This document shows, in pieces, positions 21,861 through 59,389 of a stretch of 64,000 nt of DNA. Below the pieces are notes generated by a model that was not told where the DNA came from, searched no databases, and saw nothing but the letters and a program-made list of their open reading frames with translations. The stretch is from Lepidurus packardi (taxonomy: Eukaryota > Arthropoda > Branchiopoda > Notostraca > Triopsidae), in contig JAKZAN010000002.1 of NCBI GenBank assembly GCA_023053545.1, positions 976,375 to 1,040,374 on the forward strand, given 5' to 3'. The translations under genes were made by a program, and so were the position numbers. How positions within the stretch are numbered: position 1 is the stretch's first letter; every line of letters begins with the position of its first letter.

Positions 21861-24800
21861 ATGCCGCGTCAAAACTTGAATAATGAGGTTCGTAATCCCC
21901 CAACCAAAGCAAATCCGACACGCATTTTAATACACAATATAAGAAAGAAAAGTGACCAACTACTTGAAACGGTTAGAGAAGCAGGAGAAAAATTTGTAGA
22001 TGGGCTAGTTATAATAGAACCCCCACAAAAATTTACTAGTCAAACCTTCCAAAGCTACCATGTATACTCTCAAACAACGGATTACAAAGGGGTACTTACA
22101 CTCAAAAATCCGAGAGCACCCCAACTGAAAATCCTAGAAGTTAATGAGTTATATTGCATAATTAAACTCTCTCCAAGAAGAAACCTCTCCCCTTTTATTA
22201 TAGCAGGCATATACCGGAGACACACACAAAACACCGAAACCTTACTGGAAGAGATTTGGGACAAATATTCTAAAACGTCGCCTTACCTAATTTTTACTGG
22301 CGATTTCAACGCTCACCATTGGGCATGGGAAGGAAAGACACCAGATAAAGCGGGAATGCAAGTATACGAATTTATTCAAAAACACAACTTAGTAATTTTA
22401 AATGGTTGGAATGAAGCAACTTACATTAATGAAAAGGGAAGCTCCTCAACAATTGATTTAACCTTTTCAACGATGACATCTCTACCTTTTCTAAGTCATT
22501 CGCTAGTTATAAACAACAACTTCATCAATGAATCTGACCACGAAGCCGTCCTTTTGGAATTCGACTTCGCTACTCAAAATGATAACCCCTGGAAATGGAA
22601 CTACAAAAGAGCAAATTGGAAAAAAATAAGCTCATCGCTGACGACAGAAATTAAAAACAATTCTTCATTCGTTAATATCAATAGTACAAAAAAAATTGAC
22701 CGAGCGGCTAATCTTCTAACGTCGACACTCTCAAACGCCATAGAACAATTTATTCCTAAGATTTTTTTAAAAAAAAAACAAAATCCTTGGTGGTCCTGTC
22801 AACTATCTCAACTACGCCGAGAAGCAGCCTCACGTCTAAGAACATTCAAATCTTTCAGAACTCCTCAAAACGAAGTCCTCTGGAAAAAAGCACGGAATCT
22901 TTATACGCAAAAATGTCGAGAAAACAAAAACAAATATTGGGAAAATAAACTTTGGAACCCTGATAATAGAATATTATGGAATTTGGATAGAAAAAGACGT
23001 AACCAAAAGAACGTAACCTGCCTTGACCAACTTACAAATGAAAATGGGTTAGAATTTGAAAGCCAAACCTCTAAGTCAGATTACATAGCGACAAAATTTT
23101 TCACCACTTCCAAACACACAGCGATAACTAATTACAAAGCCCTACCCTATACTTCAAATTCGCCAACTATATCATACGAAGAAGTCTCAACAATTGTTAA
23201 AAGTCTGCCTCTCACCAAAGCACCTGGTCACGATAACATTCAACCCATCGTGATTAAAAATTCATGGAACGCCATAGGGGAAACAATAATTTCACTTTTT
23301 AATGCCTCCATTAAATACTCCTACTTCCCCACCGACTGGAAGGTTGGCAAAGTAATCCCCATCCCTAAACCTAATAAAACAGAGTATAAAACATGCAAAA
23401 GCTTCCGTCCGATCACTCTATTGGCGGTAATGGGAAAAATCCTCGAAAAAATAATGACACAAAGGATCCTACAACATCTTGAATACAATCGACTCCTATC
23501 AGACCACCAATGGGGTTTTCGCACGTCACGCTCTACAACTGACGCTATGATAGATTTAAGCGACCAAATTCTAAATGGCTTCGACCGACAAAAGGTCACA
23601 TCAGTCCTCCTATTAGATATAGAAGGGGCTTTTGACAATGTCAACCATAAAAAACTTTTACAGATTGCAAATAAAAAGAAAGTTAACCCCTTCATTATAA
23701 ATTGGCTGAAAAGCTTTCTTTCAGATCGACAAATCTATGTACAAATTGACAATTCAATAAGCCAAAGATACTTCATATCCAAAGGAGTCCCTCAAGGCTC
23801 CCCTTTGTCTCCGATTTTATTTTTGCTCTATATAGATGGAGCCCTGAAATTACTTAAAAGCAAACGTATCCAAATAAGTGCTTTCGCTGACGATTTGCGT
23901 TTAGCTGTTACAGGTTCCTCTGGACAAGTTAATGTCAAACTGCTAAAAAATGCCATCAACGCACTAGAGAAATGGAGTATGAGTCTAGATCTAAATTTCA
24001 ACCGGAACAAAACAGAACTAATACATTTTTCGAGAAGACACGTACCGGATACAACTACACTTAAATGGGGAGAAGTCGTCATTACTCCACAGACGCAAGT
24101 CCGATATCTTGGCCTCATCTACGACAATAGACTAACTTGGAAGAACCACGTCGCGAAACTTTCATCCGAAGTTAATCAAATACTACAGCGAATTTCAAAA
24201 CTGGCACACGACTACAAAGCAATTCGGAATAATCAATTAAGAACACTTATTTTAGCAACGGTATATTCAAAGATCTTTTATGGACTGCCGGCTTGGTGCA
24301 ACCTTAATATAGCTAACTCATCCCCGCTTAAACATATTCATCGCCAAGCTCTAATTTTAATAACGGGAGCTCTGAAAACATCCCCAACAACAGCACTTGA
24401 AGTAGAAAGTGATATCTTCCCTCTAGAGCTTATGGCAAAACAACGAATTACCAAATACGGACTTACTAAACCTCAATTATCCCAAATGAACGTCGTCCCT
24501 AAGCACCCTAGGTATGTTCCTTGTTCAAGTCGAATAAACACCTATGTGTCGTCTTTGAATATTCCAAGTTCAAGTAAAACAAAAAGCTTAGAACTAAAGA
24601 ATATTTTTCGCCAAATATGGATTAAAAAATGGAATGAAAACCCCTCCACACTTAAAAAATTAGGTATATTTCCGGACCCCAATCCAATCTGCAAAACAAA
24701 CTTAGATAGGTTCACAATTTCTACCATGATCCAACTACGTTGTGCCCATTTTCCAACATTAGTCTACCTCCACAGAATTAAAAAAGTGGATAAACCTCTG

Positions 24801-25019
24801 TGCCCATGTGCTGCCCACGTTAAACAAGACCTACAACACATTTTTTTCCAATGCAGATGGCTAAATAAATCAAGAGCGATACAAATAAGAGAACTCTCTA
24901 AACTAAAGATCCACTACAATGCCGAACTTTTCCTCCGTAATACTAAAGCATTCCCAGCAATCATTTCTTTCATAAAAAGTGCTATGTCCATCCTCAAGGA
25001 GGAAAGGGCCACATTATAG
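21861..25019 (+). CDS. LINE 3 ORF2: AP endonuclease and reverse transcriptase, 1,052 residues
   Basis: The frame is complete. Endonuclease motifs are LIHNIRKKS, VIIEPP, TGDFNAHHWAW, SSTIDLTFST and ESDHEAVLLEF within about residues 1-235. RT motifs are KAPGHDNIQP, SFRPITLLAVMGKILE, VLLLDIEGAFDNV, GVPQGSPLSP and FADD at about residue 674. A Cys/His end (CPCAAHVKQDLQHIFFQC) lies near residue 975. There is no RNase H. It would perform target-primed reverse transcription. The start directly abuts the ORF1 stop (TAAATG), suggesting translation by termination and restart. All catalytic residues I can recognise are present. Confidence 0.9.
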   Translation: MPRQNLNNEVRNPPTKANPTRILIHNIRKKSDQLLETVREAGEKFVDGLVIIEPPQKFTSQTFQSYHVYSQTTDYKGVLTLKNPRAPQLKILEVNELYCIIKLSPRRNLSPFIIAGIYRRHTQNTETLLEEIWDKYSKTSPYLIFTGDFNAHHWAWEGKTPDKAGMQVYEFIQKHNLVILNGWNEATYINEKGSSSTIDLTFSTMTSLPFLSHSLVINNNFINESDHEAVLLEFDFATQNDNPWKWNYKRANWKKISSSLTTEIKNNSSFVNINSTKKIDRAANLLTSTLSNAIEQFIPKIFLKKKQNPWWSCQLSQLRREAASRLRTFKSFRTPQNEVLWKKARNLYTQKCRENKNKYWENKLWNPDNRILWNLDRKRRNQKNVTCLDQLTNENGLEFESQTSKSDYIATKFFTTSKHTAITNYKALPYTSNSPTISYEEVSTIVKSLPLTKAPGHDNIQPIVIKNSWNAIGETIISLFNASIKYSYFPTDWKVGKVIPIPKPNKTEYKTCKSFRPITLLAVMGKILEKIMTQRILQHLEYNRLLSDHQWGFRTSRSTTDAMIDLSDQILNGFDRQKVTSVLLLDIEGAFDNVNHKKLLQIANKKKVNPFIINWLKSFLSDRQIYVQIDNSISQRYFISKGVPQGSPLSPILFLLYIDGALKLLKSKRIQISAFADDLRLAVTGSSGQVNVKLLKNAINALEKWSMSLDLNFNRNKTELIHFSRRHVPDTTTLKWGEVVITPQTQVRYLGLIYDNRLTWKNHVAKLSSEVNQILQRISKLAHDYKAIRNNQLRTLILATVYSKIFYGLPAWCNLNIANSSPLKHIHRQALILITGALKTSPTTALEVESDIFPLELMAKQRITKYGLTKPQLSQMNVVPKHPRYVPCSSRINTYVSSLNIPSSSKTKSLELKNIFRQIWIKKWNENPSTLKKLGIFPDPNPICKTNLDRFTISTMIQLRCAHFPTLVYLHRIKKVDKPLCPCAAHVKQDLQHIFFQCRWLNKSRAIQIRELSKLKIHYNAELFLRNTKAFPAIISFIKSAMSILKEERATL

Positions 25020-26974: not shown

Positions 26975-29900
26975 ATGGGGTGCCCTTTGAACATCTTGAT
27001 GTGGAATGCCCGAAGCCTCAATCTGCATCTCAGCGGATTATGTGCATATATAAGCGAGATGCAGTAGACACCAGACGTAATATATATATGTGAAACATGG
27101 ATGAAAGAAGGGATGAAGGCAACAATTTTTGGATATGATTGCCACAGAAAAGACAGGACAGACCAAAGAGGAGGGGGCATTATGTTTTTCGTCAAACGGG
27201 GAATAGAAATTGAATGGGCGCCAATGAATTCTTTCACAGACGGTGTCCTGGAGATAGGGTGCGTAAAAGTAAAATGGGAAAACCAAATTATATATCTAGT
27301 CGGAATGTATTTGCAGGTACAAGCAGAGAAAAAAATAACCAAAGATGAATACAAATTTTATATGTCCCAGATTGGGTCTGACGAAGAATGTCTTATGTTT
27401 GGTGATTTTAACTCCCACCATAATTTGTGGAACGGGGGAAATTTTAATGACTCCAGAGGGAACACTCTGTGTTCGTTTTTAGAAGAGTGGGAAAAGTTAC
27501 TGCTAGCCTCCCCACAGGGCGTCGGCACGCATGTATCCGAGAGGGGTGCGATTACGACCATAGACCTGGTGTTTGCGTCAGCAAACATATATGACAAGGT
27601 AAGAGTCCGAACAGGGCCAATGCTACAGAGTGACCACCTACCTATTGTGATAGAAGTAGAAGGAAAAAAGGGGATGATGATAAGAGAAAGAACTCCGCGA
27701 TGGGATTTTAAAAAAGCAAACTGGGTGGAATGGAGGCGAGAAATGGCGGAAGAAGACATAGAAGAGGGCGTTAGCTGTGGAAGGGTAGAAGAGAGATATA
27801 AACGGTTTATTGACACGCTCATACAAATTACAAAAAACATGTCCCATTGAGAGAGGGAACAATTAGGGCGAAAGATACAGAAGGGGGCAAACGGAAAGGA
27901 AAGATAAGGAAACCATGGTGGGACGAGAATTGTAGCGAAGCAGTGAGTATTATGAGAACAAAATACAGAATACTGAAAAGAAGTCCCACCGCCGGAAATC
28001 TTACAGATTACAAAAAAGCAAAAGCGAATTGCAAGAGAATAACGCAGGACAAAAAAAGATCCCACTGGAAACACAAGGTGGAGGGTTTAGGTAGTCAAAC
28101 AACAACTAAACAAATGTGGGAACTCATTAGAAAAATGGAAGGGACAACTACGAAAAATATAGAAGGGGAGGCTCTTTCTTCAGGGGGTCAGCTCATACAG
28201 CAAAACAAAGAAAAAGCGGAAATATTGGTGAAGCATTTCGCTAAGATTCAAAGCGAGAGTACAGAAACACACGCAACCGAAACGGAAGTCCTACAAATGC
28301 AATATGAAATAGACAGTATGATCTATGATAAAAACTGCACGGACGAATTTAGTAGACCCTTCTCAGAATGGGAAATAGAGGTTATTTTAAAAAAGACACC
28401 AAAGACGAGCCAAGGCAAAGATCTGGTCCACTACAACATGTTAGGAGAATTACCAAGAAACTGGAGGCGTGCTTTGAAAAATCTTTTTAATTATATATTG
28501 GAGAAGGGCACAGGACCTAAAGAATGGGGTAATGCAGTAGTTGTACCGATATTAAAACCAGGTAAAGACCCTAAGGAAATTAAATCATATAGGCCCATAT
28601 CGTTAATATCATGCGTCGCCAAAGTGTTTGAAAGAGCACTAGTTAAAAGATTAAACTGGGTGTCCGAAAAAAGAGGATGGTACTCACCGATACAGACAGG
28701 GTTTAGAAGAGGACGCAGCACGATTGACCAGCTAGTCAGGCTGAACAACGAAGCGCACCGAGTATATAGAAGAGGAGAGGTCTTAATCGCGTTATTTATA
28801 GATTTTACCGCAGCATTTGATTCAATTTGGATAGACAAACTTTTATATAAAATTGGTCAAAAAGGTGTAAAGGGTAAAATTTTAGGGTTCTTGAAATATT
28901 TCTTAAATAACAGAACGATGGAAGTGAGAATCGGGAGCAGCAATTCCAATCAAAAAGAACTAAAAAGAGGAATCCCTCAGGGGTCGGTGATCAGCCCCTG
29001 GCTCTTTAACATGATGTTGTCAGACTTTCCAATAAAGGTTGGGGAAACAGGGGCTTCGCTCAATGCTGATGACGCAGGAATCTGGACCAGCGGGTTAGAC
29101 TGTGACTCGGCGATGGGGAGAATGATAAATGTTGTAAGGGAAGTGGAAAAATGGTGTAAGGAGAACGGGTTGGAAATATCCACAGATAAAACGAAATATT
29201 TGGTAATTACAAGAAAACGTAAAGCGGAGAGCAAAAATAAAATAAAAATCAATGGAAGCGAAATAAAAAGAGTGGAGAGCGCCAGATTCTTAGGGATTGT
29301 GTTCGATAGAAGACTTAGCTTCAATGAACAAGTAAAACAAATAAGAGAAAAGGGAATGAAGACTGCAGGTATTTTACATAAATTAGCGGGGAAGACTTGG
29401 GGGGGAGATATCAATATTTTACTCACGGTATACAAAAATCTTATTAGGTCAAAATTAGAATACGCAAGCTTCATATACAAGAACATTAACTCTAGGAAAC
29501 TAGAGGTACTAGAAACGGTACAGAACAAATCATTAAGGATTATACTTGGAACAACGAAGACAACACCGATTGGGGTGCTGCATTGTGCCTCAGAAGTTTT
29601 ATCACTACAGAAAAGAAGAATTTTACTTGAACAAACATATTTTAACAGAATGACAGAATGTCACAGGAATGACCCCGTAGTAAAAGAGATAGTGGACAAG
29701 AATTCCCTGTTTTGGGAAAGTGTGTCCGAAACGAAAAACAAAAACAAAATACCTTATGTCATGCAAGGAGATTATTTTAAAAATTTGTTACCGCCCTGGG
29801 AATTCAAAGGTCATCAGATAAAAACCACGATCCCGGGAAACAGCAAAGAAAAGTGCAATCAGCAAACAGTGCAAGAAGTTTTAATGTTTTTAGAGAAGGA

Positions 29901-30783
29901 GTATGAAAATTTTAAACGGGTTTTTACGGACGGATCAAAAGATACTGAGGGAAACTCGGGATGCGGAGTTTACATGGAGGAAATGGGGGAGACAAGATCA
30001 TACGCATTAAACAAAGCAACGACAGTAATGGCTTCCGAATTGCACGCGATAATACAAGCGATAAGGTGGATTGAGGAAAAGGAGCCGGATAATTACGTCA
30101 TACTGACGGATTCAAAATCCGCAGCACAGCTGCTAGATAGCTGGGGGAACCGTTCATATTTTGGTCTTACACAAAAGATTCAAAACAAAATGAACGACTT
30201 AAGGACAGACGGGTACACAATAAGGATCCAGTGGATGCCGGCACATAGAGGGATCAGGGGAAACGAAATGGCGGATGGAGCGGCAAAGGAAGGAAGGTTG
30301 ACAGGGGAAGAAATTAATCACAAAACAACATGCCAGGAGCTGGAATCAATAACGAAAAGGAAAGTCGAAAAGGACTACATAGAAGAAATAAAGACAAGAA
30401 CAGCACAAAAAATGGTTCAGAACACGTACCAGTTCGGGACCAACAAATGGATAAACAGCAGGAAAAGAAGAGAAGCCATTGTTTTACTACGAATAAGGTG
30501 TGGACATGGGAGATTCCGGTCATGGCTACACCGCTTCAACATGACCGAAGATGACACATGTCGTTACTGTGAGGAGGAGGAAGAAAGCCCGGAACATTTA
30601 GTAATGAGATGTGAGAAGTTTTCAGAAAAAAGGGAGGAACTCAAGAAAAAACTAGAAGATAGTAAAATAGCCTGGAGATTCGAAACTATAACGGCACTGG
30701 AAGGCGGAAAGAAAGATCAGTACATAGCACAAAATTGTCTTTTAAAATATTTAAAAACAACCGATATCATAACAAACATATAA
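26975..30783 (+). pseudogene. LINE 2 ORF2: endonuclease, reverse transcriptase, RNase H; two breaks
   Basis: The endonuclease starts with LNILMWNARSL (26990) and shows ICETW, GDFNSHH and QSDHLPIVIE. A TAG near 27068 and a 1-nt loss near 27843 interrupt the frame. From 27847 to 30783 the frame is open (978 residues) with KIRKPWWDENCSE, SYRPISLIS, FTAAFDSIWID, GIPQGSVISP, then NADD near 29060 (the usual Phe before ADD is Asn). RNase H has FTDGSKD, ASELHA, LTDSKSA and HRGIRGNEMADGAA. A Cys/His end (CRYCEEEEESPEHLVMRC) follows. It is otherwise the best copy of its family here. Confidence 0.85.
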
Positions 30784-30960: not shown

Positions 30961-33900
30961 GCTATGACGAAGTTCTGGGAACTGGAAACCAAGGGTATCT
31001 CCCAAGAACCTCTCGACTCCATCTCTAGGGATCCAATCAAGACTCGCATTCAAAACAGCATTACTTTCGACGGCGAACGCTACACTGTCGCACTCCCTTG
31101 GAACGATTCGAGGTCCAGTCTCAGTGACAATTTCGAGCTTGCAAGTCAGCGTCTTAACTCGACAATGATTCGTCTGAAGAAAAGTCCCCTTTTATTTGAA
31201 GCCTACAATGAAATCATTCGCGATTATGAGAAGAAGGCGTACGTAGAACCCGTTCCTGTGGTGCGGCACCATCCCTCGCAAGAAGGGCCTTTAATCCATT
31301 ATTTGGCTCACCATCCCGTCGTGCGTCCAGACAAAAGTACAACCAAGGTCCGAATGGTATTTGATGGTTCCGCCCATATCCCTCAAGGGCCTTCCATCAA
31401 CGAATGTCTCTTTCCTGGACCCAATCTGACCCCTGACCTTGTAGAAATTCTGCTGCGGTATCGCGCCCATCGTTACCCATTTACAGGTGACATTGCCGAG
31501 GCCTTCCCGCAAATTTGCATTGCTTCAAAGGACCGAGACTCCCTGAGATTCCTGTGGAAACGGGACAACGAAAATTCCTTCGGACTAACTGCCTATCGTT
31601 GGAACCGGGTTCCCTTTGGACTAACCTGTAGCCCTTTCTTGTAAGCGGTTACCCTTCAACATCATTTCGCGAGCCTTGAATCCCAATTCCCTGAAACAAT
31701 CACTTTACTATGTCGTGATACTTACGTTGATGACACACTTACGGGTGCTCAAACCCGCGAAGAAGCCCTTCTACGGATAACAGAAGCTAGAATAATCTTC
31801 GCGAAGGCCGGGATGAACTTTAGAAAGATTTGCACTCCTGATACGGAACTACGCCAGCAAGTTTCTGAATTGTTTGAACCCCGAGACAATCCCAATTCTG
31901 ACAAACTCCTCTCTCCCACGCAAGATGGCCGTGTTTTGGGGCTGTTATGGAACTTTGAAACGGATTCTTTTCATTTTGACCCAAGCCCATTGGTGGAACT
32001 TTTAGAGAAATATTCCCCCCCTTATTCCAAACGAATCGCGTTAAAACTTGTCTCCAAGCTCTATGACCCCCTCGGATTCATTAGCCCTGTAACCTTTATT
32101 GCCAAATCTTTCCTGCAAACCCTTTGGGTGTTAGAATGAACTTGGGATGACCCTCTGCCCAAAGCAACTGCTGAATCATTGTTCCAGTGGGTCACTGACT
32201 TACGAAACCTAAGAAACCGTCAAATCCCACGTTTTTACGGTTTCCCAGATGAATCTCCCACGCTCCATGTTTTCAGCGACGCAAGTGAAAAGGGATACGC
32301 CACAGTCGCATACATTCGCGTGGTGGAATCCGGAAATGTTCGGGTTTCATTATTAGGAAGCAAAACACGCATAGCACCCTTGAAAATTGTTTCAATACCT
32401 CGGTTGGAACTCCTTAGGACAGTTTTAGCTTCGCGATTTGGCACCTTCCTCCGTCAGAGCCTTGCCCCCCTCTTTGGAGAGCTTCGCATCACCTATTGGT
32501 CAGATTCACAGGTCGCCCTTTACTGGATCAAAAGTTCGCCTCAAAGATGGAAACCGTTTATAGCTAATCGTGTTCAGGAGATTCAAAATTCGACTGATCC
32601 TTCAACCTATAGATTTTGTCCGGGTAAACTCAACCCAGCAGATATCGCCTCCCGAGGAAGAAGCGCATCATTGTTGAATCAAGAAGCCGTTTGGTGGACT
32701 GGTCCTCGATGGTTAAAGGAACCCGACGAGAATTGGCCAAAATATGATTCTTCCCTAAGGCCTGCCTCACAAGACTTCTCTAAGGAATTACGAAAGAATA
32801 CAACCGTCATGTCCGTTGTTTTCCCCCCACATTCCCCTGCATTGATTCCCTTCGAACGATTCAGTTCTTTATCCGCTGTTATAGCCGTTACCGCTTGGAT
32901 TTTTCGTTTCATATTTAATTGGCGAAATCGGGTGGACAAGCGTCAGAAGGGACCTTTAACGACTGAAGAAAGAATTGCTGAGCGACGACTTGTTTCTCAA
33001 ATCCAAGAAGGAAGTTACGCAAAGGAAATTCAAGTCTTGAAGTCTAGCCAACGAATTTCGCCTTCTTCTCCATTTTACGCCCTAAATCCGTCTTTGTGCC
33101 GCAAGGAGGGTATTTTGCGCGTTGGTACTCGTCTCAACGATTCATTTTCAGCACCCATCCTGTTACCAGCAAACCATTACTTCACCCAGTTGGTTGTGCG
33201 GTACTACCATTTGACTAACTGCCATGCCGGACCTCGAGACACGTTAGCTCTCATACGGTATCATTACTGGATCGTCACCGGCAAACAAGTCGTAAAGAAA
33301 ACTCTCAAGAATTGTATCACTTGTAACCGGTATAATGCTCTACCCTACGCCGAACCTTCGGGCTCCCTTCCGGCGGATAGAATCACCCCTACAATTCCCT
33401 TTGAAGTTTGCGGTACCGACTTTGCCGGTCCCGTTTTTCTGAAGTCGTCCCTTGAACCCGCCAAGGCTTATATCTGCCTATTCACCTGTGCGGTGACACG
33501 TGCCGTGCATCTAGAATTAGTACCGGATTTAACGACTCCTAGCTTCATCTTGGCGTTCCGGCGTTTTCTGTCTCGACGCGGGTATCCCCGAGTCATCTAT
33601 TCAGACAATGCCTTGACGTTCAAGAAGGCTAATAAGGATTTACAAGAACTTTACCATCGAATCCGCGATTCGGAAGTTCAAACCTTTTCCGCGCTTTACC
33701 GAATTTCCTGGAAATTTATTGCTGAACGTGCCCCTTGGTGGGGAGGATTCTATGAGCGTCTAATTCGAAGTGTAAAGCTTGCGGTAAAGAAGGTTCTGGG
33801 TAGGGCAAGTGTGGGACTCGACGAATTCCAGACGGTACTGTGCGAAGTCGAAGCATCCCTCAATTCGAGACCCCTTACATCTCTATATGACGATCCTAAG

Positions 33901-34316
33901 ACGATCCTAAGGAATTAGATCCCCTTACTCCAGGACATTTTTTGATAGGAAAACCCTTGCTATGTCTACCACCTTTGACACCTAAGGAGAACGCTTTTAC
34001 ACCTACAGCCCGGGAAGCTACTAGACGCGCTGCTTATCGTGAGAAGCTCATGGATTCATTTTGGAAGCGATGGACAAGGGAGTATCTTCCTGAGTTATGG
34101 AAGGGTGTTACGCCGAAACGACAAAAATCAGTAAATCTCAATGATTTGGTCATTATTCGTGAAGATAATGTCAAACGCCAACATTGGAGTCTTGGACGCA
34201 TCAGTGAACTACATCCGGGACGTGACGGCCGAACCAGGAGTGTGAGCCTCAAGACAAAAAAGGGCTGTGTAACCCGCCCTATTACCCGTCTGTACCCATT
34301 ACAATATTGCGAATAA
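30961..34316 (+). pseudogene. BEL/Pao pol: RT, RNase H, integrase; two stops and an 11-bp duplication
   Basis: One frame runs through YTVALPWNDS, VRMVFDGSA, FTGDIAEAF and the YVDDTL active site (31725). RNase H begins at LHVFSDAS (32266) with a later YWSDSQ. Integrase has an HHCC finger (about 33170-33330) and the catalytic acids in GTDFAGP, YSDNAL and the Glu of GGFYERLIRSVK. Two stops lie in this frame: TAA at 31642-31644 and TGA at 32137-32139 in place of a Trp. At 33889-33911 an 11-bp tandem duplication shifts the frame, so the C-terminal DUF5641-like domain (LIGKPLLCLPP to 34316) is out of phase. It would copy RNA into DNA and integrate it, but it is inactive as read. Confidence 0.85.
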
Positions 34317-36391: not shown

Positions 36392-37460
36392 TTATAGGTG
36401 AATTGGGTTGTCATTAAAAAATTCCACCATTGCGGAACGAACTTGCTCTGCTCTTATTGCTGCTTCGTTACGAAAGGTATTGGGCCTTGTTTGCTCGCTA
36501 AACTCAGCATCGCAATCTTCTGCGGGCACGCCAAATTTTTCGCACATATTGTGAAGGGTACAACAAGCTTTGGTAATGAGGTTAATTATACTAATAAGAA
36601 ACTCCATTCGTTTATAAGTAATTCGCCAGCGCATCTTTAGTCTTCCAAAAGCATTTTCAATTACCCGTCGAGCGCGAGACAACCGAAAATTAAAATGTTT
36701 TTGCTCCTCGGATAACCTGGTTGTATCACGATATGGCTTCATTAGCGTTGGCAACAGTTGGAAAGCTCCGTCTCCTAAAATGTGAGTTGGTACTCGTACA
36801 TCGCTAACATACATGGAAGAATTCAAACGCTCAAGGGCCAACACCTTCTCGTAGAAACGTGAATTTTTGAAAATGTAGCTGTCGTTGTTCCGTCCTGGAG
36901 CCCCAACGTTTATATAGGAAAACCTATATTTCGCGTCGCACATTGCGAATAGAATTACGCTATAGAAGCCTTTATAATTGTAGTAATCAACAGCTTCTTC
37001 CTTAGGAGGACAAATCGGGATATGGCAGCCATCGATTGCACCAATTGCAAGTGGGTAATTCCACATCGCTGAGAAATCATTGGCTAAAATGTCATATTCC
37101 CTTTCGCTCTCGGATAATTTGATAAATTCGGGCATGAACACGTCGACGACAGCGTGACAAAATTCGTAAAGTATGTAGGGTACAGTACTTCTTCCAATTC
37201 CGAAAAGATGTCCGACAACGCGTAGTTCTGCTGCTGATGCAAGCGAAAAAACAGCAACAGCTACTCTCTTTATAACCGGAATAGGTCATCTCATAATCGT
37301 TGTGTTTTTTTTCAGTACAGGGCGTAGCCGGTCGCAAAGGTACGTAAATAAGGCTCTTGAGGTACGGAAATTTTGTCGGAATGTAACTTCTGACATTGTT
37401 GGCACAATCTTGAGCCACCACTCTCCAGAAGAAACGAGCGATTATGGCCTAGGTACTAGG
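36392..37460 (-). pseudogene. Harbinger 2 DDE transposase, one in-frame stop
   Basis: On the minus strand the frame runs GEWWLKIVPTMSEVTFRQNF, RALFTYLCDRLRPVL, then a TGA at 37288-37286, PIPVIKRVAVAVFSLAS and LFGIGRSTVPYILYEF. The catalytic core holds GAIDGCHI (first Asp), ILGDGAF (second Asp) and RRVIENAFGRLKMRW (Glu). It ends at 36392. The TGA sits where related proteins usually have Arg, as expected of CGA to TGA. The rest looks complete, so this copy is nearly functional. Confidence 0.8.
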
Positions 37461-43069: not shown

Positions 43070-44775
43070 CATGTCGGACAACTCGCACAAAACATCTGAA
43101 GTTGCGGACATTGTAAGCCAGCTGTCGCAACAAATTAGTAATTCTCTTGCAAAGACTTAATGAAAACGTCTTCAACCGGACGAAAGCCCCCAAAACAAGT
43201 GAAACAGAGCCGGTCCCAAGCGAAGCATTAACGTATAAAGGTCGAGTCTCCGAATGGCTCGACTACCAGGAACCAATCCGCGAAGCCCCAGACGCGTGGA
43301 TCGATGTTTATGTCAGCGGGAGGGAATCACCGGTCAAAGCCAGCTCCGGTTGTTCGAAACATTCGGGAGTTGATTTGGAGCCGTATTCTGGGTCAGCACT
43401 GGAATGGTTCCAGTGGATAGACCTTTTTTATTCTTTGGTACATCTCAGCCGAAAAGGCCCTGGAGAGAAACTAGCCATCCTGCGTCGCAGCTTACGGGGA
43501 GACTGTATGAACATTGTTTACGGTCTTGGCGGGGGCGAAGACGCGCACAAGGCAGCGCTAAGTCGGCTAAGGGAGAATTGCGGACGTCGCGACGTGATGA
43601 GAGCAGCTCATATCCTAGCCTTGGATAAGCTCGAAGTTGGAAAGAGCTCGACCGAGTTTAAGAGGTTCGCGGAGCGTGTCCGTACCCACCTTTTTGACCT
43701 CAGCCGCATCGGGGGTAGCAGTCAACGTGATATTATTGTGCGCGTCACCGCAAAGCTGTCAATCCAAGACCGTCTCGCCTGGAATGAAGGTTGCTCCTCA
43801 GGTATTTTCCTTCATGAGCTGGATCGATTCGGTACATGGCTTTGTGGACGCGCCGCAGCCTACCAGAATGCTTACGATATTGCAGCAGAACAAGAAAAAT
43901 CTAGCAAAGAAGCCGACAAAAGGATCAAAGGTCGCAGCAACAATGCCAATGTCGAACCAACGCGACCACCGAGGATCACAAGCTGCTGGAACCGTGGAGA
44001 TGAACACAAGCTGGAAGATTGTTCCGAGTTTCAGTCCTTGCCGGACAACGAGAGACAGAAGTTTGCAGAAGACAAGAAGCTATGTTTCTCCTGCCTTCGG
44101 GGGAGGCACATGACGCGAGATTGCAGGACAGGCCGGGAATGTGGCATCAACGGATGTAAGAAACGCCATCACCGCCTTCTGCATCGTAACGAGCGAGTGG
44201 ATGATGCGTTGTCCGTACATGCGACACAACGCAATCGTGAAGCAGTAGCCTTGGGTGTCATAACTGTACACGTAGTGGACTCCAATGGAAAGAAAATTCA
44301 AGCAACCATGTTAATCGACGAAGGGAGTAACTCATGCCTTATTAAAGATGCTTTCCTTCGACGTCTAGGGTTCTCAGGAGAGAGTTACGGGTTGAGGCTT
44401 CATGGGGTTGGCGGAAAAAGTGGGGACTACCGTACGCAGCAAGTAGAGATCCAGATTGAAGGGGAAAGCGGTCTGCTGCCGATAGTAGTCAATTCTATAC
44501 CAAAGGTATGTGAAGCTACTGACAAAATCGAGTGGGTAAGACTGAAGGAGAAGTGGACCCACCTGAAAGATCTGCCACTGCACAACTCGGGAGGAGAAAT
44601 ACACATCCTTATTGGCTCCAATTACCTTCACTTGCTTACCCCAATGCCAAATGCCCGGAGCCATTCGTACGGACTTTGGCTGGGTGGCGAGGGGTGTAGT
44701 CGACCCGGATGGACAACAGAGTTCCCGCGTCAACCTCCTCCGGATTGCCCACGGAACCCTGGACGATACGTTTAG
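43070..44775 (+). pseudogene. BEL/Pao B gag and protease
   Basis: A start at 43070 (MSDNSHKTSEVADIV) is put out of frame near 43150. The long frame 43147-44775 continues. It has a DUF1759-like gag region (LEWFQWIDLFYSLV, KLAILRRSLRGD, about residues 85-230), a zinc knuckle (CFSCLRGRHMTRDC) plus a second Cys/His set (CGINGCKKRHHRLLH), and an aspartic protease with MLIDEGSNSCLI. IDEGS is the usual BEL active site. The frame then ends; RT goes on in another frame from 44612. Confidence 0.75.
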
Positions 44776-48313: not shown

Positions 48314-48345
48314 GATGGATTGGCTATCACAACCCTTCTTCTAGA

Positions 48346-48374
48346 CCGCGGCAACCGCGGCAAACCGCGGCAAT
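48346..48374. repeat. Short CCGCGGCAA tandem repeat
   Basis: Three ACCGCGGCAA units occur in a row, an unusual GC-rich island about 80 bp upstream of the TATA box of the OTU gene. It could be a binding site cluster. Confidence 0.4.
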
Positions 48375-48449
48375 TCGCATAAAAGCGGGTTCAGCCATGT
48401 TAGGGGAGGGGCTAGCGATCCGCTGCGAGGGTTGCATGCCGCAGCACAC

Positions 48450-48490
48450 TATATAAGGTGGTTGCATTGAACCATTCTTCCTTCAGTCTG
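48450..48490 (+). promoter_or_regulatory. TATA box and TCAGT initiator of the OTU-MULE gene
   Basis: TATATAAGG lies at 48450-48458 and TCAGTC at 48483-48488. The spacing of about 31-35 bp matches an arthropod core promoter. The transcript would have a 5' leader of about 160 nt rich in T with ATTATTT/CTTTT repeats. Confidence 0.6.
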
Positions 48491-48645: not shown

Positions 48646-51600
48646 ATGAGTAAATCAAGGGCGCAGTTTTTTAAAAATTGTCTACGCGATCTTGAACGTA
48701 GAGCAAATTTGCCTGCGTCGGCCTACGATAGTTCTTCAAGAGCGCCCATACTGATTAGTAACGAACATTTTGAGAAGTTTAGGCAGGTGTGTTTTTCACA
48801 GAAAACAGAGTTCGATGCTTACCCTCTCCCGAAGCGTATGGCAATATGGCAATCTCAGAGTTTTAATATTGACCAAATGGACACAACTGCTTCCAGTACT
48901 TTGCCCGAGCGTTTGAGCGAATGTTTAGCTTTGTGCAGCAATGGAGATGGGAATTGTTTCTACAATTCCGCTTCTTTGTCTTTGTTCGGCAACCAAAGGC
49001 ATGCCGTTGAGTTGCGCTGCCGAGTTGTGGTCGAATTAGCAACCAATTATGAGTTGTACTCCAGGGAGTCGGCAGGATACCTCTCGATGAAACAAATTGG
49101 AACCCTAGTCGAGTACTCAGGATTCACTTTCGACCGTGTTAAATTCACGGGCGTTGACTCAGTGTGCCCTACAGGTATTCCACCGGCGGAAGACTGTTTT
49201 AAGTACTATTCCATGGAACACGCCAGGGATCGGGAATATTCGAGCATTATTGCATTCCCAGCTTTGGCTAATGTTTGTAAGATAGCCGTGGAGTCAGTTT
49301 ATCCGAAAGCGGATGGAATCAGAGCATCTCATCAAGCGAATTTTTTAAACGAGACGTTTTCACCAAGCGGTGCCGTTTCCTCTGAAACTATTCGAATTTT
49401 GTGGACTGGGCTTTTCGCAAACTTCACGAAGAAGGAAAATGGACGTTTAGTCCCTCCAACATCCTGGAATCCCATTCATTTTGTGCCTGTGATTGAGCGT
49501 GCTAGTCAGTCACCCCTCTTTTTGTCAGAGAACTGCACTCTTCCGGTTCTTGATGTGGTAGAAACTGCGTCAGTTATTCCCAGTCATCCAATTGAAACTG
49601 CAAATGTGATAACACCTGTTGCAGTTTCTTTTTGCAGCTCTATGCAAAATAGTAGTAGCGCTGTTAGTTCAGGGCTTCGCGAGTCGTTCTCGCATGAAAA
49701 TTCAAGCTCAGATTTTGAATTGTCTGTCCCAAAAGCTTTTGCCGCAAATAATGGAGAGCACGAAGAAAATGTCACTAAAGCCATTTCATCGAATGGTAAA
49801 ACACCTGGTGTGAAGTCAGGCAGAGTAGTATCTCATACCAAGCAAGGGCCTTCAAAATTTTCGTGCAAGGGATGTGAAACTACGTTCAAAACAAATCAAA
49901 ATTTGGAGAATCACATAAACAAGCGCTGCAAGTTTCAGCTAGGAAAACAAAGCTCTAGTCAGATTCTGCTTGCCGAGCAAGAATCTAAGGGCTTTACGTG
50001 CAAAGACTGTAAAACCGTTTTCACAAGGAAGAGCAATTTGAAGTTGCATATAGAAAGGAAAAGATGTAGCAAGTCTAGTTTTGAGTGCCCGCAGTGTAGT
50101 TTGCAGTTTTCTAGAACAGACATGCTCACCCGTCATGTAGAATTAGTTCATTCTCTTGAATTAGGCTCTAGTCAAATTTTGCTTGCCGAGCAAGGATCTA
50201 AGGGCTTTACGTGCGAAGACTGTAAAACCGTTTTCACAAGGAAGAGCAATTTGAAGTTGCATATAGAAAAGAAAAGATGTAGCAAGTCTAGTTTTGAGTG
50301 CCCGCAGTGTAGTTTGCAGTTTTCTAGAGCAGACATGCTCACCCGTCATGTAGAATTAGTTCATTCTCTTGAATTAGGCTCTAGTCAAATTTTGCTTGCC
50401 GAGCAAGGATCTAAAGGCTTTACGTGCAAAGACTGTAAAACCGTTTTCACAAGGAAGAGCAATTTGAAGTTGCATATAGAAAAGAAAAGATGTAGCAAGT
50501 CTAGTTTTGAGTGCCCACAGTGTAGTTTGCAGTTTTCTAGAGCAGACATGCTCACCCGTCATGTAGAATTAGTTCATTCTCTTGAATTAGAAGGAACACG
50601 TACTTCTGAGGAGATACCCTTAATTGGCCCGGTAGACAAGGAGCATTCCTTAAACGTGATTTCAGTTGACAAGCAGCAATTGCACATCTTAGTCGAGTTA
50701 GATCAGTCAGAGCCGACTTACGACCCAGTAATAAATTCTGCGTTTCAGAGCAGTGTTAGTGGTAGCGTGTCTGCTGATACCATTAATTGCAGTACTTTAG
50801 TCATCGATTCTGACGACGAATTCTGTAACGTTGCTAGAAAAAAGAGAAAGCTCGAACAGAAACCAAGAATAATTTGCTATCACCCTGGCTGTGAAGAGAA
50901 GCTGTCACATCTGACGTCTTATGTTAAGCATGTTAACAATAAACATGGTTTGTCCTGCCAGCTAGAGAAATTCAGTTTTTCTAACGAGAACAGTTTCATG
51001 TCGTGGAAAACAGAGATCGAAAGAAATGCTTGTGTTAGTTTCCGTAATCGAAGGGGAGCTCGGAAGTGCACTAGTTACAGTATAACAACCTACGTGTGCA
51101 ATCGCTCTCTCTCGTATAAAAATCGGGGTACAGGCAAACGTGCCTTGAAGCGACTAAAGTCTTGTTGTACGGGTGTCCGTTGTACCAGCTTTATAACTGC
51201 GCTAGTATCGCACCTTACAAAAAGAATTAAGGTTACATGTTGCCTAACTCATGTTGGCCATGATCGTTTACCAGGTCGTTGTCGCCTTCATAAGGGAACA
51301 GAAGAAGAATTACAACATAAGCTTATGATCGGAATCCCTAAACGCAAAATTGTTGAGAGTTGTATGGCAGAACCCATCACCAGTGATGTACTTTCTAGGG
51401 ATCAGGCCGTTACCATGAAAGATTTACATAACATAGCTCAGAAAAACCCGAGCGTTTTCCGGAAACATAAGATCGATTCTGAAAGGGTTGACTTGTGGAT
51501 CCAACAAATGGCAACAGAGGAATATAATCCGGTATTTCTGTATAAAAAGCAAAACGTTGCAGATGAAGGTGTTGCAGAATTAGGTGTTGCAAACTTTGCT

Positions 51601-53092
51601 CTAGGCATTATGTACGAGGATCAGCAGGAAGCCTTAAAGAAGTATGCCCATAAATGTATATGCATAGACAGTACTTACCAGGTTAACCAGTATATGTTTG
51701 TTTTGACAACGCTTCTAGTCTTGTCTGAAGATCGATCGGGTTATCCGGTTGCTTTCCTTCAAAGTGATAGAGAGAATAGAGAAGTATATCGTTTATTCTT
51801 TTCCAAAATTAAAGAAAAGGTTGGTAGTATTAAAACTTTGGAATTTATGAGTGACATGGCAGATCAATTCTGGCTTGCCTGGAAAGATGTTTTTGACGTT
51901 TCGATTACCACCAGGCGCATTTGCATTTGGCATGTAGAAAGAGCGTGGCACAAAAGATTGCACGATCATCCCCGTGCGGACACGGAAGTTATCAACAACA
52001 TTCTGTCTCTACTCGGCCATTTAATCCGGATTAGAGAGAAAAGTATCTTTCAAAGACGTTTGCAAGCTTTCCTGACGTACGCAGAAGAACACCATCCAAT
52101 GTTCTTGGCTTACTTTGTTGAATATTATGTTCCGAGAGAAAGTGAATGGTCAGGTTATAACTGTGAACAGATGCTAGTTAGAACGAACATGACTGCGGAA
52201 GCATACCATAAAGAATTGAAATATGGTGTGATGAAAAATAAGAGTAATAAAAGACTTGACTCACTAGTTGAAGATCTCGAGAGATACACAAAGAAGAGAG
52301 CTTATAAGGAGGTTTTAATTCGTCAAAGAGGCTTGAGTACAAATACTATTGTGGAAACTAACCGCCGGCACAAACGATCCGATACGATTAAAGATGAAGA
52401 CGTAATTGTTCTGGGGAAAAATGCATGGAAGGTCAAGTCTCAACAACAGGCGGATACGTATTACGATGTTGTTCGCTTTTTCGACGAATTGTGCGAATGC
52501 ATTAATAGATGTGGATTTTGCGGAGCTTGCAGGGAAGTATTTTGGTGCTCGTATGACGATTTTTATAATTATCATTTCGTCTGCAAGCATATCCATAGAG
52601 TTACCCCAGTTTTAAGTGACAATCTGCGTCATTCACGTGTCATAGGAGCGGCATTAGTAGAGCAACAGATCGCTGAAAATGCCCAGCTAGAAAAGTTAGC
52701 TAGAACAACTAAACCGCCAGCCGTTTCCTTGGCAAACATTCGTAGAGACTTGCGCGAGATTCNNNNNNNNNNNNNNNNNNNNNNNNNNNNNNNNNNNNNN
52801 NNNNNNNNNNNNNNNNNNNNNNNNNNNNNNNNNNNNNNNNNNNNNNNNNNNNNNNNNNNNNNCGAGAGAAACAGCTCAATCTTATCTGATCCATTCCAGT
52901 GAAAAACACAACCCCACAACAGGCAAAAACAGTCCAGCAAAAGTTATAGGAGAATTGATTTTACGGAAATGGATCGAGAAATGGATAGTCACCTTGCCCC
53001 CTACTCAACAGGTTCTCCAGTTTCGGAACTCGGAGATAAAATTGACACTAGTGTGTATTATTGTTGCAAAACGTTCTCCGGAAAAAGAATGA
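48646..53092 (+). CDS. OTU protease, C2H2 fingers, MULE transposase and SWIM fusion protein
   Basis: One exon is open from the ATG at 48646 to the N gap at 52763. Residues about 95-282 form an OTU-type cysteine protease: GDGNCFYNS with Cys104 and NPIHFVPV with His278. Residues about 400-650 hold one finger plus three tandem 71-residue repeats with two fingers each (FTCKDCKTVFTRKSNLKLH and FECPQCSLQFSR). Another C2H2 (CYHPGCEEKLSHL) follows near residue 745. From about residue 1000 a MULE-type core is seen: CIDSTYQVNQ (Asp), FMSDMADQFW (Asp) and NMTAEAYHKELKYG (Glu). A SWIM-like FWCSYDDF...VCKHIH lies near residue 1300, with Tyr in place of its second Cys. After the gap a frame stays open to 53092 but runs into a miniature element from 53029. 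It could be a MULE transposon protein or a captured copy. No terminal repeats were found. Confidence 0.8.
49951..50589 (+). repeat. Three tandem 213-bp units inside the OTU-MULE gene
   Basis: Units 49951-50163, 50164-50376 and 50377-50589 differ at only a few positions. Each encodes 71 residues with two zinc fingers. The frame is kept, so the array extends the DNA-binding part. Confidence 0.9.
52763..52862. other. Assembly gap of 100 N
   Basis: Exactly 100 N, a placeholder of unknown true length. The coding sequence cannot be followed across it. Confidence 0.99.
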
Positions 53093-53315: not shown

Positions 53316-53909
53316 ACGTACAGTACTGAAATTAAGTATCGTTCCTATGGTTTTCGAAATTGACCAATCACAGCGCTTTTCCACTGTTTGGATGGGTTTT
53401 TACATTGCTTGCCTACTTCTACGCTCAGGTAGGGTTCTCAACAAGTCCCTCCTAGTCCCCAGTTAATTAAAGAGCAGGTCAGTCAATTAAATGCTCCTTA
53501 GTAGCGAAGCTAATCCCTTTTCCCTGACAAACAAAAGGTCAAAGCAAAGAAAATGCTGGCGACCATCAATCCAGAAACTTTATTTTTCATCAATAGCTAG
53601 TATGACCCCCCCCCCCCGTTCTCCCGACACTCTTCCAATCTCCTAGGCATGGTGGTGATGGTCGCCAAGCATTTTCTTTGCTTTGACCTTTTGTTTGTCA
53701 GGGAAAAGGGATTAGCTTCGCTACTAAGGAGCATTTAATTGATTGACCTGCTCTTTAATTAACTGGGGACTAGGAGGGACTTGTTGAGAACCCTACCTGA
53801 GCGTAGAAGTAGGCAAGCAATGTAAAAACCCATCCAAACAGTGGAAAAGCGCTGTGATTGGTCAATTTCGAAAACCATAGGAACGATACTTAATTTCAGT
53901 ACTGTACGT
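53316..53909. repeat. Foldback palindrome, arms of about 254 bp
   Basis: 53316-53568 is repeated inverted at 53656-53909 almost without change; I see single-base differences such as CTGGCG against CTTGGCG. An 87-bp loop with a run of C lies between. The outer ends read ACGTACAGTACTG and its mirror. A transcript would form a long hairpin. Confidence 0.9.
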
Positions 53910-56732: not shown

Positions 56733-59389
56733 TAGGGGTCGTAATCGATTGGTCAGACATCGATTATTAATCGATTAGTACCGATGATCGATTACTAAGT
56801 TGACTAATCGATTAGTAGTTCTTACACTGACCGAATCTGTCTTCTTGCAGAGCTGTATCCAACTTTTCCCTCATTTTTTACACGGTTTTTGGTGATTGTT
56901 GCAATCCATTGTCCCTTATGGCGTCTTGTAAAGATAAAACACCTATGCAGTTAGTTGCACAAAGTGATTCTGAGTCAGAGAGCCAATCCTCTATGGAAAG
57001 TGAGCTTTCAAAAACACCGGAGCCAGCTACAAAGCGTAGTCGAACGGCTAAGCGCTCGTGGGTCCACCACTACTTTCTCTCCCATCCTACAATGGTAAAC
57101 AAACTAATCTGCACCTACCAAAATTGCAACACTGTTCTTGAGAAGAAAGGTAGCATGTAACATTTAACGATTACGTTTAAAATACAGTGGCTAACGTGCG
57201 CATGTTTAGGAAATACAACCAACCAAATGAACCATCTCCAGTACCGGCATCATCTCAGTAAAGAAAAACATGAAGAAAAAATATCGGGAGTTGAACGCCC
57301 TCTTAGCAGAAATCAAGACATTCGTCAGGCCCTCGCAATTTCTGTTAAAGACGCGCAGCCGTTTACCGATAAGTCTCAAATGCAACATACTCGCCGTTTG
57401 TTGCGCTTTGTAGTGGACGACCAGCAGCCACTTCATATTCTACAGAATCCTCACTTTGATGCATTTTTAAAGAAGCTGAATCCAAAATGGCGAACGCCAT
57501 CCGTCCATTCAGCAAGGCAAGAAATTTTAAATTGCGCCGCTCTTGCAAGAAGGGAACTCAAGAAGATTTTAGAAACGGAAACGAATAAAGTTGCTATGAC
57601 GTCCGATATATGGACGTCAGTTGCAAATGATTCGTATGTCAGTATCACGCTGCACTGGATTTCGGAAATTTTTGAATTTCGCTCTGTTAATTACGCTACA
57701 GTGCAAATTCAAAGCCCCATACAGGGGAAAGTATCGCTGAAGAACTTTCTCACGAGCTTGAAAGACTGGAAATTAAGCACAAGATTATTGCCGGAGTAAC
57801 GGATGGTGCTGCGAACATGAAAAAGGCGTTCGAGGACTTTTATTTCGAAGACATCGAACATTTTGTTTGTGCAGCTCATACGCTACAGTTAGTTGTCAAC
57901 AAAGGGCTGGAGCCATTAAAACTGTTGGTAGACAAGACGAAGGGATTGGTATCCATCTTTAAACGTTCTCCAAAACAGAAAGAGATCCTGGAGAAGGCAC
58001 AACAGCTCGCAAAAATTTCTAACCACCAGCTTAGCGTCATTCAATCTGTAGAAACAAGGTGGAACTCCGAATACGAGAAGCTACAGCGCATTAAGGTTTT
58101 GCAGAATGCATTCCCAATATATGAAGGGCTTATCGGCAATGACTTTAAAAGTAGAAGAGTATATGAAAGGTATAAGCTCGAGTCTCGAGAATGGATGCTT
58201 GTAGAGCAAGTTATACAGATCTTGGAGCCCTTCAGCTACGTGACGGCGGAGCTAGGTGGTGATACGTACAGCACTCTTTCGTACGTCTATCCTACGATTT
58301 TAGAGCTTCATAAGCGGTTAAGGGAGCTCAATGAATCAACGCTGCTGCTCCCAGAAATTGTGAATTGCAGCGAGATTATGCTCAGAGTAATTCAAGACAA
58401 ATGGCTTACCAACGAGCCGAGTAAATTCATTTTACTCGCTTCTGCTCTTGACCCAAGATTCAAGAATCTTGTATTTATCAAACAAGACCAAGAAAAGGAA
58501 AGCATTTGGCAATACATGAGGGAGCAACTGGATATTCTGGTTCTGAAGGAGGAGCCGCAAGTTTTGCACACAACTGAAAACAAACTGGCGCAGTTTTACG
58601 CCTCCTTCGATGACGACGAGGAAACAGTTGACGAAATCTCCCAGTACAGAGTACTGAAAAAAATCAGGATAACTGAAAATCCTCTAGAGTGGTGGAGGAA
58701 TCATTCACCGACCTTTCCTCGCCTTTCTTTGCTGGCACAAATGTTCCTCTGCGTTCCCGCAACATCTGTTTCTTCTGAAAGAAATTTCAGTGATGCGGGC
58801 AATACAATCACGAAAAAGCGGGCGAATCTTTCTCCAGAATTAGTTGATGATCTCCTTTTCCTAAGGAGCTCACTGCGCCACTTTGGCGTTTTCGCTCTTA
58901 GAAATAAGGAGTGACGCGTTCCTGTTGTGTTTTGCAGTCAAAATGATTCAGATCGATGTAATGAGTGTTCCTGCTTTTCCTTGAAGTGTTTCTTGTAAAA
59001 ACTACAAACACTTCATAAGCTATCTTTACGTATTTTTGACAATCATACGTCCACTTGGTGCAAATAAACGGAAATTTTCAGTAAAAAATAGTTCGCTTTT
59101 AAGAAAATGTGACAGTAGTCGCTAACAAAACGATTGCCCTAACAAAGTGCTAATCGTTGAGCTAGTCGTTAGGGAAATATGGACTGCAGTGGTTGATAAT
59201 CGATAATTAATCGTAGTTCAATAATCGATATTAGTAATCAATTTTTTAAAAAATGGCACTAATCGCTAACTAATCGATTAGTAGTAATCGATTAAGAAAA
59301 TTAAGTGCTAATCGTTAACTAATCGGTAATCGAATTTTTTTTCCTTTCGATTAATCGATTAGTGAAATCCTAATCGATTACGACCCCTA
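56733..59389 (+). mobile_element. hAT element, 2.66 kb
   Basis: Ends TAGGGGTCGTAATCGATT at 56733 and its mirror at 59389, flanked by GCTACAAG on both sides (56725-56732 and 59390-59397). Many AATCGATTAGT-like subterminal repeats lie in 56740-56815 and 59200-59385. It carries a transposase gene with one frameshift. Confidence 0.92.
56918..58914 (+). pseudogene. hAT transposase, BED finger to hATC domain, one frameshift
   Basis: Exon 1 (ATG 56918 to 57149) encodes a Ser/Glu-rich start and the first half of a BED finger (WVHHYFLSHPTMVNKLICTYQNC). A 60-bp intron (57150-57209) joins in frame to GNTTNQMNHLQYRHH. The frame 57227-57799 shows the core start (VAMTSDIWTSVANDSYVSIT, first Asp). A 1-nt change near 57715 moves the frame; it continues with AGVTDGAANMKKAF, HFVCAAHTLQLVVNKGL and ends with the dimerisation region WWRNHSPTFPRLS and ATSVSSERNFSDAG to 58914. 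All other family marks are present, so the copy is young. Confidence 0.88.

Follow-up and report, generated by a model that had tools for sequence, protein, structure and literature searches.

A young, multicopy MULE transposon in Lepidurus packardi probably carries an OTU-like domain, zinc fingers and a PHD-like finger beside its transposase

Introduction

What is a reading frame that joins a putative ubiquitin protease to a transposase: a gene of the host, or a mobile element? The question is raised by a 64,000-nucleotide stretch of the genome of Lepidurus packardi (Notostraca, Triopsidae; GenBank assembly GCA_023053545.1, contig JAKZAN010000002.1, positions 976,375 to 1,040,374, forward strand), hereafter the window. 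An earlier reading, made from the letters of the window and here called the sequence-only reading, described at 48646..53092 a single frame with an OTU protease, eight zinc fingers, a transposase of the Mutator-like element (MULE) type and a SWIM-like finger. It offered two explanations, a new MULE family or a domesticated gene, and proposed a search for further copies with terminal inverted repeats and target duplications. We conclude, with a probability of roughly 0.8, that the open reading frame (ORF) is a copy of a young, multicopy Mutator-like cut-and-paste DNA transposon with OTU-like, C2H2/C2HC, MULE, SWIM and PHD-like parts.

Copies and ends of the element

Genome searches were made in the window's own assembly (108.6 Mb, 344 contigs). 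With the whole protein as query, 34 of 347 candidates were scored, which gave at least 74 matches in 34 places, most of them 87–100% identical; a second subfamily (B, beside the first, A) was 70–71% identical in its N-terminal part. The search with the OTU region yielded 99 candidates and 100 matches. By a count of the rows, identity was 95% or higher over 200 residues or more in 44 OTU regions (16 of these belonged to an amplified short form on contigs C20 and C21 and at two places on C6), and about 11 stood at 70–71% identity.

The copies have a common left end, found at window position 48316 and at the corresponding base of 13 other loci; the DNA outside it differs between loci, except that L007 and L019 share the same flank. 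The terminal 26-mer had 32 exact matches in the genome, and its reversed control had none. When the 205-bp left end was searched, 38 of the 40 scored matches reached base 1 (40 of 83 candidates scored), and 32 of 40 reached the last bases in the right-end search (40 of 107 candidates scored).

The search for other copies with inverted repeats and target duplications succeeded on both counts. In a first set of loci, a search close to the left end for its first 20 bases in inverted orientation, with 4 substitutions allowed, was negative; an extended copy on C16 has a diverged, inverted counterpart of the left end at a distance of about 8.5 kb. The inverted repeats, as read in other copies, are imperfect and about 100 bp long, contain CCGC-GCAA-type subrepeats, and agree over 67 bp at 87–88%, with longer similarity in further alignments of the left end to 3' ends. 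Target duplications of 9–10 bp were present in five of eight distinct insertions. Among the seven insertions with both flanks read, they measured 9 bp at C1:12449343, C6:6383458 and C2:3410567, and 10 bp at C1:7511000; in a short, 2.49-kb form of the element the duplication is 10 bp long, and the flanks are identical at the three places on C20 and C6 where they were read. Multiple copies, inverted repeats and duplications of this size fit a new MULE family.

Paired ends lie 8.2–8.5 kb apart at six places (twice on C16, three times on C1, once on C6), and 5.6, 6.1, 7.3, 9.2, 10.6 and 13.3 kb apart at others; in 15 short-form copies the spacing is 2.49 kb. Because the readable 8.2–8.5 kb copies are without 1.2–1.5 kb of the MULE core, a core-bearing element should by addition be near 10 kb long. 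Apparently the same copy of the element stands at both ends of contig C46 (L041, L042), in opposite orientation, and the assembly therefore seems to break within the element.

Reading frame and domain order

The features of the window copy are collected in Table 1. From its ATG the frame is uninterrupted through 52761, which makes 1372 residues, and it then runs into an assembly gap. The single frame that had been described as reaching 53092 is thus open up to the gap but not beyond it, since a stop is met in each of the three frames downstream. The DNA from 52863 on had no match among the 33 other loci compared, apart from L017 pieces of a separate inverted repeat; it is not part of the transposase frame. 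Copies that extend past the position of the gap have about 170 more residues with a PHD-like finger at the end, and the predicted domain order in other copies is OTU, C2H2/C2HC array, MULE, SWIM, PHD-like.

Table 1. Features of the element copy in the window (window positions; a point in the strand column stands for no strand)
Feature	Position	Strand	Basis or remark
5' terminal inverted repeat region, start TGGATTGGCTATCACAACCC, with subterminal CCGCGGCAA-type repeats	48316..48425	+	Left end common to copies; repeat array
TATATAA, possible TATA box of the element's own promoter	48450..48456	+	Sequence reading
Transposase ORF, interrupted by gap	48646..52762	+	Open-frame reading
OTU-like cysteine protease domain (putative), limits approximate	48913..49515	+	Sub-threshold PF02338; conserved Cys/His
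Zinc finger region, eight C2H2/C2HC fingers	49855..50955	+	PF00096, E 1.3e-31, seven stretches; eighth from sequence
Three tandem 213-bp units, two fingers each	49952..50590	+	Repeat analysis; six of the eight fingers
MULE transposase domain	51658..51936	+	PF10551
SWIM-type finger, mutated (CSC to CSY, residue 1303)	52510..52602	+	Alignment of copies
100-N assembly gap	52763..52862	.	PHD-like finger, minisatellite and 3' inverted repeat of other copies not in window

The eight zinc fingers of the sequence-only reading were recovered as the seven Pfam stretches and one atypical finger near residue 756, which was read from the sequence. By the same reading, four of the eight end in Cys instead of His. 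The 213-bp unit occurs one to four times in other loci.

The MULE region was likewise borne out. PF10551 covers residues 1005–1097 at E 7.9e-9 and 36.3 bits, above its cut-off of 27.6, and scores 38.7 bits in L013. Asp1008 (codon 51667), Asp1070 (codon 51853) and the CIWH motif (from 51922) are joined by a probable Glu1185 (codon 52198) outside the Pfam match, and we take these to be residues of the MULE catalytic type. The positions of Asp, Asp, CxxH and Glu are identical across seven aligned loci. The SWIM-like finger is present but degenerate in the window: five other copies that reach it have CSC...CKH. With its frame interrupted by the gap and one cysteine of the SWIM finger gone, the window copy is probably non-autonomous. 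A scan for promoters of the sigma-70 type, which is the wrong type for this genome, found none, and the spliced-leader sequence SL1 of nematodes gave 0 matches.

The tail finger of the longer copies has the pattern CxxC...C-CxxC-WFHxxC...CxxC; in L009 a stop falls within it. Behind the ORF come a minisatellite (126 bp × 3.1 in L037 and L035, 67 bp × 5.1 in L014) and then a long stretch with no ORF of at least 120 residues in the copies listed. Some longer ORFs belong, by our reading, to a hAT-like neighbour.

Two loci carry a different arrangement. At L010:1426-4662 (minus strand) and L011:1426-4995 (minus strand), one frame of 1079 and 1190 residues, respectively, contains two MULE modules of different families in tandem, linked via a zinc-finger array; the loci are nearly identical where compared.

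Age of the OTU-MULE association and selection

OTU families more divergent than A and B were found at 42–47% identity (about 12 substantial rows), 36% (3 rows) and 27–34% (four loci, two rows each). At ten divergent loci a MULE match lies 1.3–1.6 kb from the OTU match, on the same strand and in an open frame of the same reported length: 1356 amino acids (aa) three times, 1299, 1234, 1140 and 1062 aa, and 698 aa three times. The OTU match spans both catalytic positions in six of the ten. Only its C-terminal half lies in the MULE frame at the 1234-aa locus and the three 698-aa loci, and the N-terminal half is in a separate 167-aa frame at the latter. Because these divergent families of the same genome also pair both parts, the OTU-MULE association is, as judged from the matches, old and has been kept through long divergence.

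A recent gene fusion confined to this assembly had been named by the sequence-only reading as an outcome that would overturn its proposal. It would be a chimera, with a MULE that was inserted beside an OTU-zinc-finger gene or captured it, and with the fusion present only in this neighbourhood or assembly. The mosaic frame with two MULE modules in L010 and L011 speaks for such an origin, in that composite frames do exist in this genome. The pairing of OTU and MULE in A, in B and in the divergent families, over an OTU identity range of 27–47%, speaks against it, and we hold a recent chimera to be extremely improbable.

Between A and B, synonymous divergence (dS) is 0.3–0.7 in the OTU region and the fingers and 0.02 in the MULE core. 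The two subfamilies have thus diverged in OTU and fingers and little in the core, and modules were therefore probably exchanged between them. The ratio of nonsynonymous to synonymous divergence (dN/dS) is 0.47–0.57 in the OTU region and 0.16 in the MULE part, the latter on only five differences. Among close copies, the corresponding ratio of polymorphisms (pN/pS) is 1.05 in 24 A copies, 1.38 in 12 copies without and 1.06 in 7 copies with the MULE part; B had too few changes. No stop interrupts the OTU region in any of the 28 copies compared, and three further copies on C20 have one there.

These figures bear on the second proposal of the sequence-only reading, a domesticated host gene that combines a deubiquitinase with a DNA-binding protein derived from a transposase. 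A long intact frame and an OTU region free of stops in 28 copies are what such a gene would show. Set against them are dozens of dispersed copies, 95–100% alike and mostly with different flanks, as well as the inverted repeats and target duplications; many copies are truncated or otherwise broken, the C20 copies with a stop among them, and pN/pS is about 1. Domestication is accordingly very unlikely, and a transposon family remains the preferred reading.

In such a transposon, the DDE domain would cut and rejoin DNA, and the zinc-finger array and the SWIM finger may bind the subterminal repeats. The OTU domain could strip ubiquitin from the transposase itself, from chromatin or from repair proteins, and the PHD-like finger could dock on histone tails.

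The N-terminal domain and the evidence against the reading

The OTU catalytic pair of the sequence-only reading stands at the residues it gave: GDGNC is residues 100–104 with the codon of Cys104 at 48955-48957, and NPIH contributes His278 (codon 49477-49479). The Pfam match is the part that falls short. PF02338 stays below its cut-off, yet it matches all seven aligned members (best E 0.0037); the same seven have weak matches to other families, NAD_kinase in four and Peptidase_C65 (otubain) in four. A profile of the seven members, compared with the PDB, gave 12 matches at E ≤ 5, of which the top six are OTUD1 and A20, two are OTUD7B and four are unrelated; the two alignments printed are in register at the catalytic Cys. 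All 28 copies compared (24 A, 4 B) have both Cys104 and His278. In three of three distant families, 36–45% identical, Cys and His are found at matching places, with NGNC for DGNC.

Several results weigh against the transposon reading or against one of its parts. Three of the eight distinct insertions (C16:1819542, C3:838364 and C16:1828892) have no target duplication, and the five that do have all lost the MULE core, with no core-bearing copy among the flank pairs read. The whole 1372-residue protein had no OTU match in Pfam at E ≤ 1, and the N-terminal fragment alone reached E 0.025 and 15.5 bits with PF02338, for which the cut-off is 23.3 bits. The best PDB match of the profile had an E of only 0.18, and a single-sequence AlphaFold model of the OTU region, with a predicted local distance difference test score (pLDDT) of 33.3, was useless for the fold. 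The PHD call (PF00628, E 0.018 and 0.0077) is below cut-off, though the Cys/His pattern fits. There is also no sign of recent selection on the OTU region, since pN/pS is about 1, as in decaying transposon copies.

The sub-threshold profile scores would suit an inactive OTU-like relic, or another papain-like fold, that binds instead of cleaving, and so would the replacement of the Asp of DGNC by Asn in three divergent families. The conservation of Cys and His in all close copies and distant families compared points the other way, as do the OTU enzymes at the top of the profile matches and the register of the two printed alignments on the catalytic Cys. We judge a relic or other fold to be unlikely; the N-terminal domain is likely an OTU cysteine protease.

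Viral contigs were scanned as well. The MULE part had zero matches, and one match to the OTU part (L063) was rejected as due to chance, because it covers residues 7–71 only and its translation resembles a phage terminase.

Copies without the transposase core

Seven distinct deletions excise the MULE core within the ORF. Their effect on the frame was assessed by the distance from a marker before the MULE region to one in the PHD linker at 33 loci, some of them the same place seen twice: a distance was obtained for 19, the downstream marker was missing from the data in 8, and the upstream marker was missing in 6. Five of the seven deletion types are in frame and open (L032; L021; L022/L035-L037; L030/L039/L045/L048; L044), and the remaining two shift the frame (L025/L038; L017, overall). 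With an expectation of 1 in 3, the probability of at least five in seven is 99/2187 = 0.045, calculated by hand, which is weak statistics. Some of the in-frame types carry breaks at other points (L036, L037, L021, L044). The stretch from GDGNC to the final SNTN is without a stop in L032/L018, L035, L039 (minus strand), L045 (both), L047, L048 (both) and L049; between the two markers, the core-keeping copies L008 and L009 are in frame and L010, L012 and L046 are not. In-frame loss of the core that leaves OTU-zinc-finger-PHD proteins is suggestive only.

One deletion type was found at three places with differing flanks (L022, L023/L036 and L024/L037), and core-less copies have therefore probably moved, using transposase from elsewhere. 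The 2.49-kb form (e.g., C20:21541-24034; others on C20, C21 and C6) is also a deleted one, and its ORF, mostly of 400 aa, includes the OTU region. Its identical flanks at three places indicate that it was inserted once and then amplified with a larger unit.

Core-less copies may be no more than non-autonomous products of ordinary decay that play no part themselves, and we find this fairly probable. It agrees with a pN/pS of about 1, with the out-of-frame deletion types (L025/L038; L017 overall), with the breaks elsewhere in several in-frame types, e.g., L036, L037, L021 and L044, and with the many further truncations among the copies. It sits less easily with five of seven distinct deletions that stay open between the zinc-finger side and the PHD linker where 1 in 3 was expected (P 0.045), and with the deletion type whose three different flanks suggest movement. 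A more tentative and rather doubtful idea is that the element repeatedly sheds its DDE core in frame and so spreads OTU-zinc-finger-PHD proteins and OTU ORFs of about 400 residues as self-encoded trans-acting regulators. Such proteins might compete for the element ends and deubiquitinate chromatin or the transposase. The KP repressor of P elements is an analogue of a trans-acting regulator of this sort, there without a deubiquitinase effector.

At three places on contig C1 (L045, L048 and L039), an A-type and a B-type copy stand head to head, and the MULE core is missing from both; at L039 the B copy is also without the first part of the OTU region.

Neighbourhood in the window

Just downstream of the gap there is a perfect 242-nt inverted repeat with arms at 53316-53557 and 53668-53909 and 110 nt between them. 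It looks like a fold-back element, and a 78% similar piece of it was found at L017:179-377. Other mobile elements crowd the window (819-2834, 21861-25019, 27847-30783, 32179-33918, 36392-37141, 43147-44775 and 57817-58914). By kind they are non-LTR (long terminal repeat) retrotransposons with reverse transcriptase, endonuclease and RNase H, Pao/BEL pieces (Peptidase_A17, DUF1759), a DDE_Tnp_4 transposase and a hAT C-terminus.

Comparison with known systems

A young family, copies with and without each module, and diverged OTU-MULE relatives occur here together in one genome, and a role of OTU in transposition or its regulation is therefore testable by comparing copies. The sequence-only reading had known of no described MULE with this domain order. 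The exact order indeed had no published description in our literature searches, whose scope left out Repbase and the Phantom paper; an OTU domain in a MULE, on the other hand, is already known, as Table 1 of PMC6446971 lists MuDR-6_HM of Hydra with 'Ovarian Tumour Gene'. MuDR-6_HM (group 14 there) resembles the present family as a single-ORF MULE with OTU as an extra motif, and differs, when compared by its table description only, in that no zinc finger and no inverted repeat are given. In a term search of the text of PMC13359780, OTU, PHD, C2H2 and SWIM were unmentioned.

The same table gives MULE target duplications of 8–11 bp. Rehavkus, as described in PMC6446971, has a PHD finger, a minisatellite before the 3' inverted repeat, a 9-bp duplication and one ORF. 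The window family has the same set, but its PHD finger is sub-threshold and its duplications are 9–10 bp; OTU, a C2H2 array and SWIM are not listed for Rehavkus in that description. Spectre shares C2H2 and Ghost shares SWIM with our family (PMC6446971). Spectre differs in its 8-bp duplications and perfect 74-bp repeats, and neither OTU nor PHD is listed for either of the two in the part of that source covered.

Fusions of a ubiquitin- or SUMO-type cysteine protease to a transposon protein extend beyond MULEs. PMC2836005 describes, in the text covered, OTU, Ulp1 and PHD in Ginger1, Ulp1 in Mutators and OTU in Helitrons; by its account such proteases accompany transposases from several superfamilies that are not related to one another, and it suggests that they act in transposition, with no proof in the same text. 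OTU in animal Helentrons is reported in PMC6431247. Ginger1, the OTU Helentrons and the Ulp1 Mutators are thus alike in the fusion itself (PMC2836005, PMC6431247), and differ in belonging to other transposon groups or in carrying Ulp1 and not OTU. The protease is C-terminal in Ginger1 (PMC2836005) and N-terminal in the window family. The parts of the element are known separately, and what is unusual is their long combination, together with copies that have the protease but are without the transposase core.

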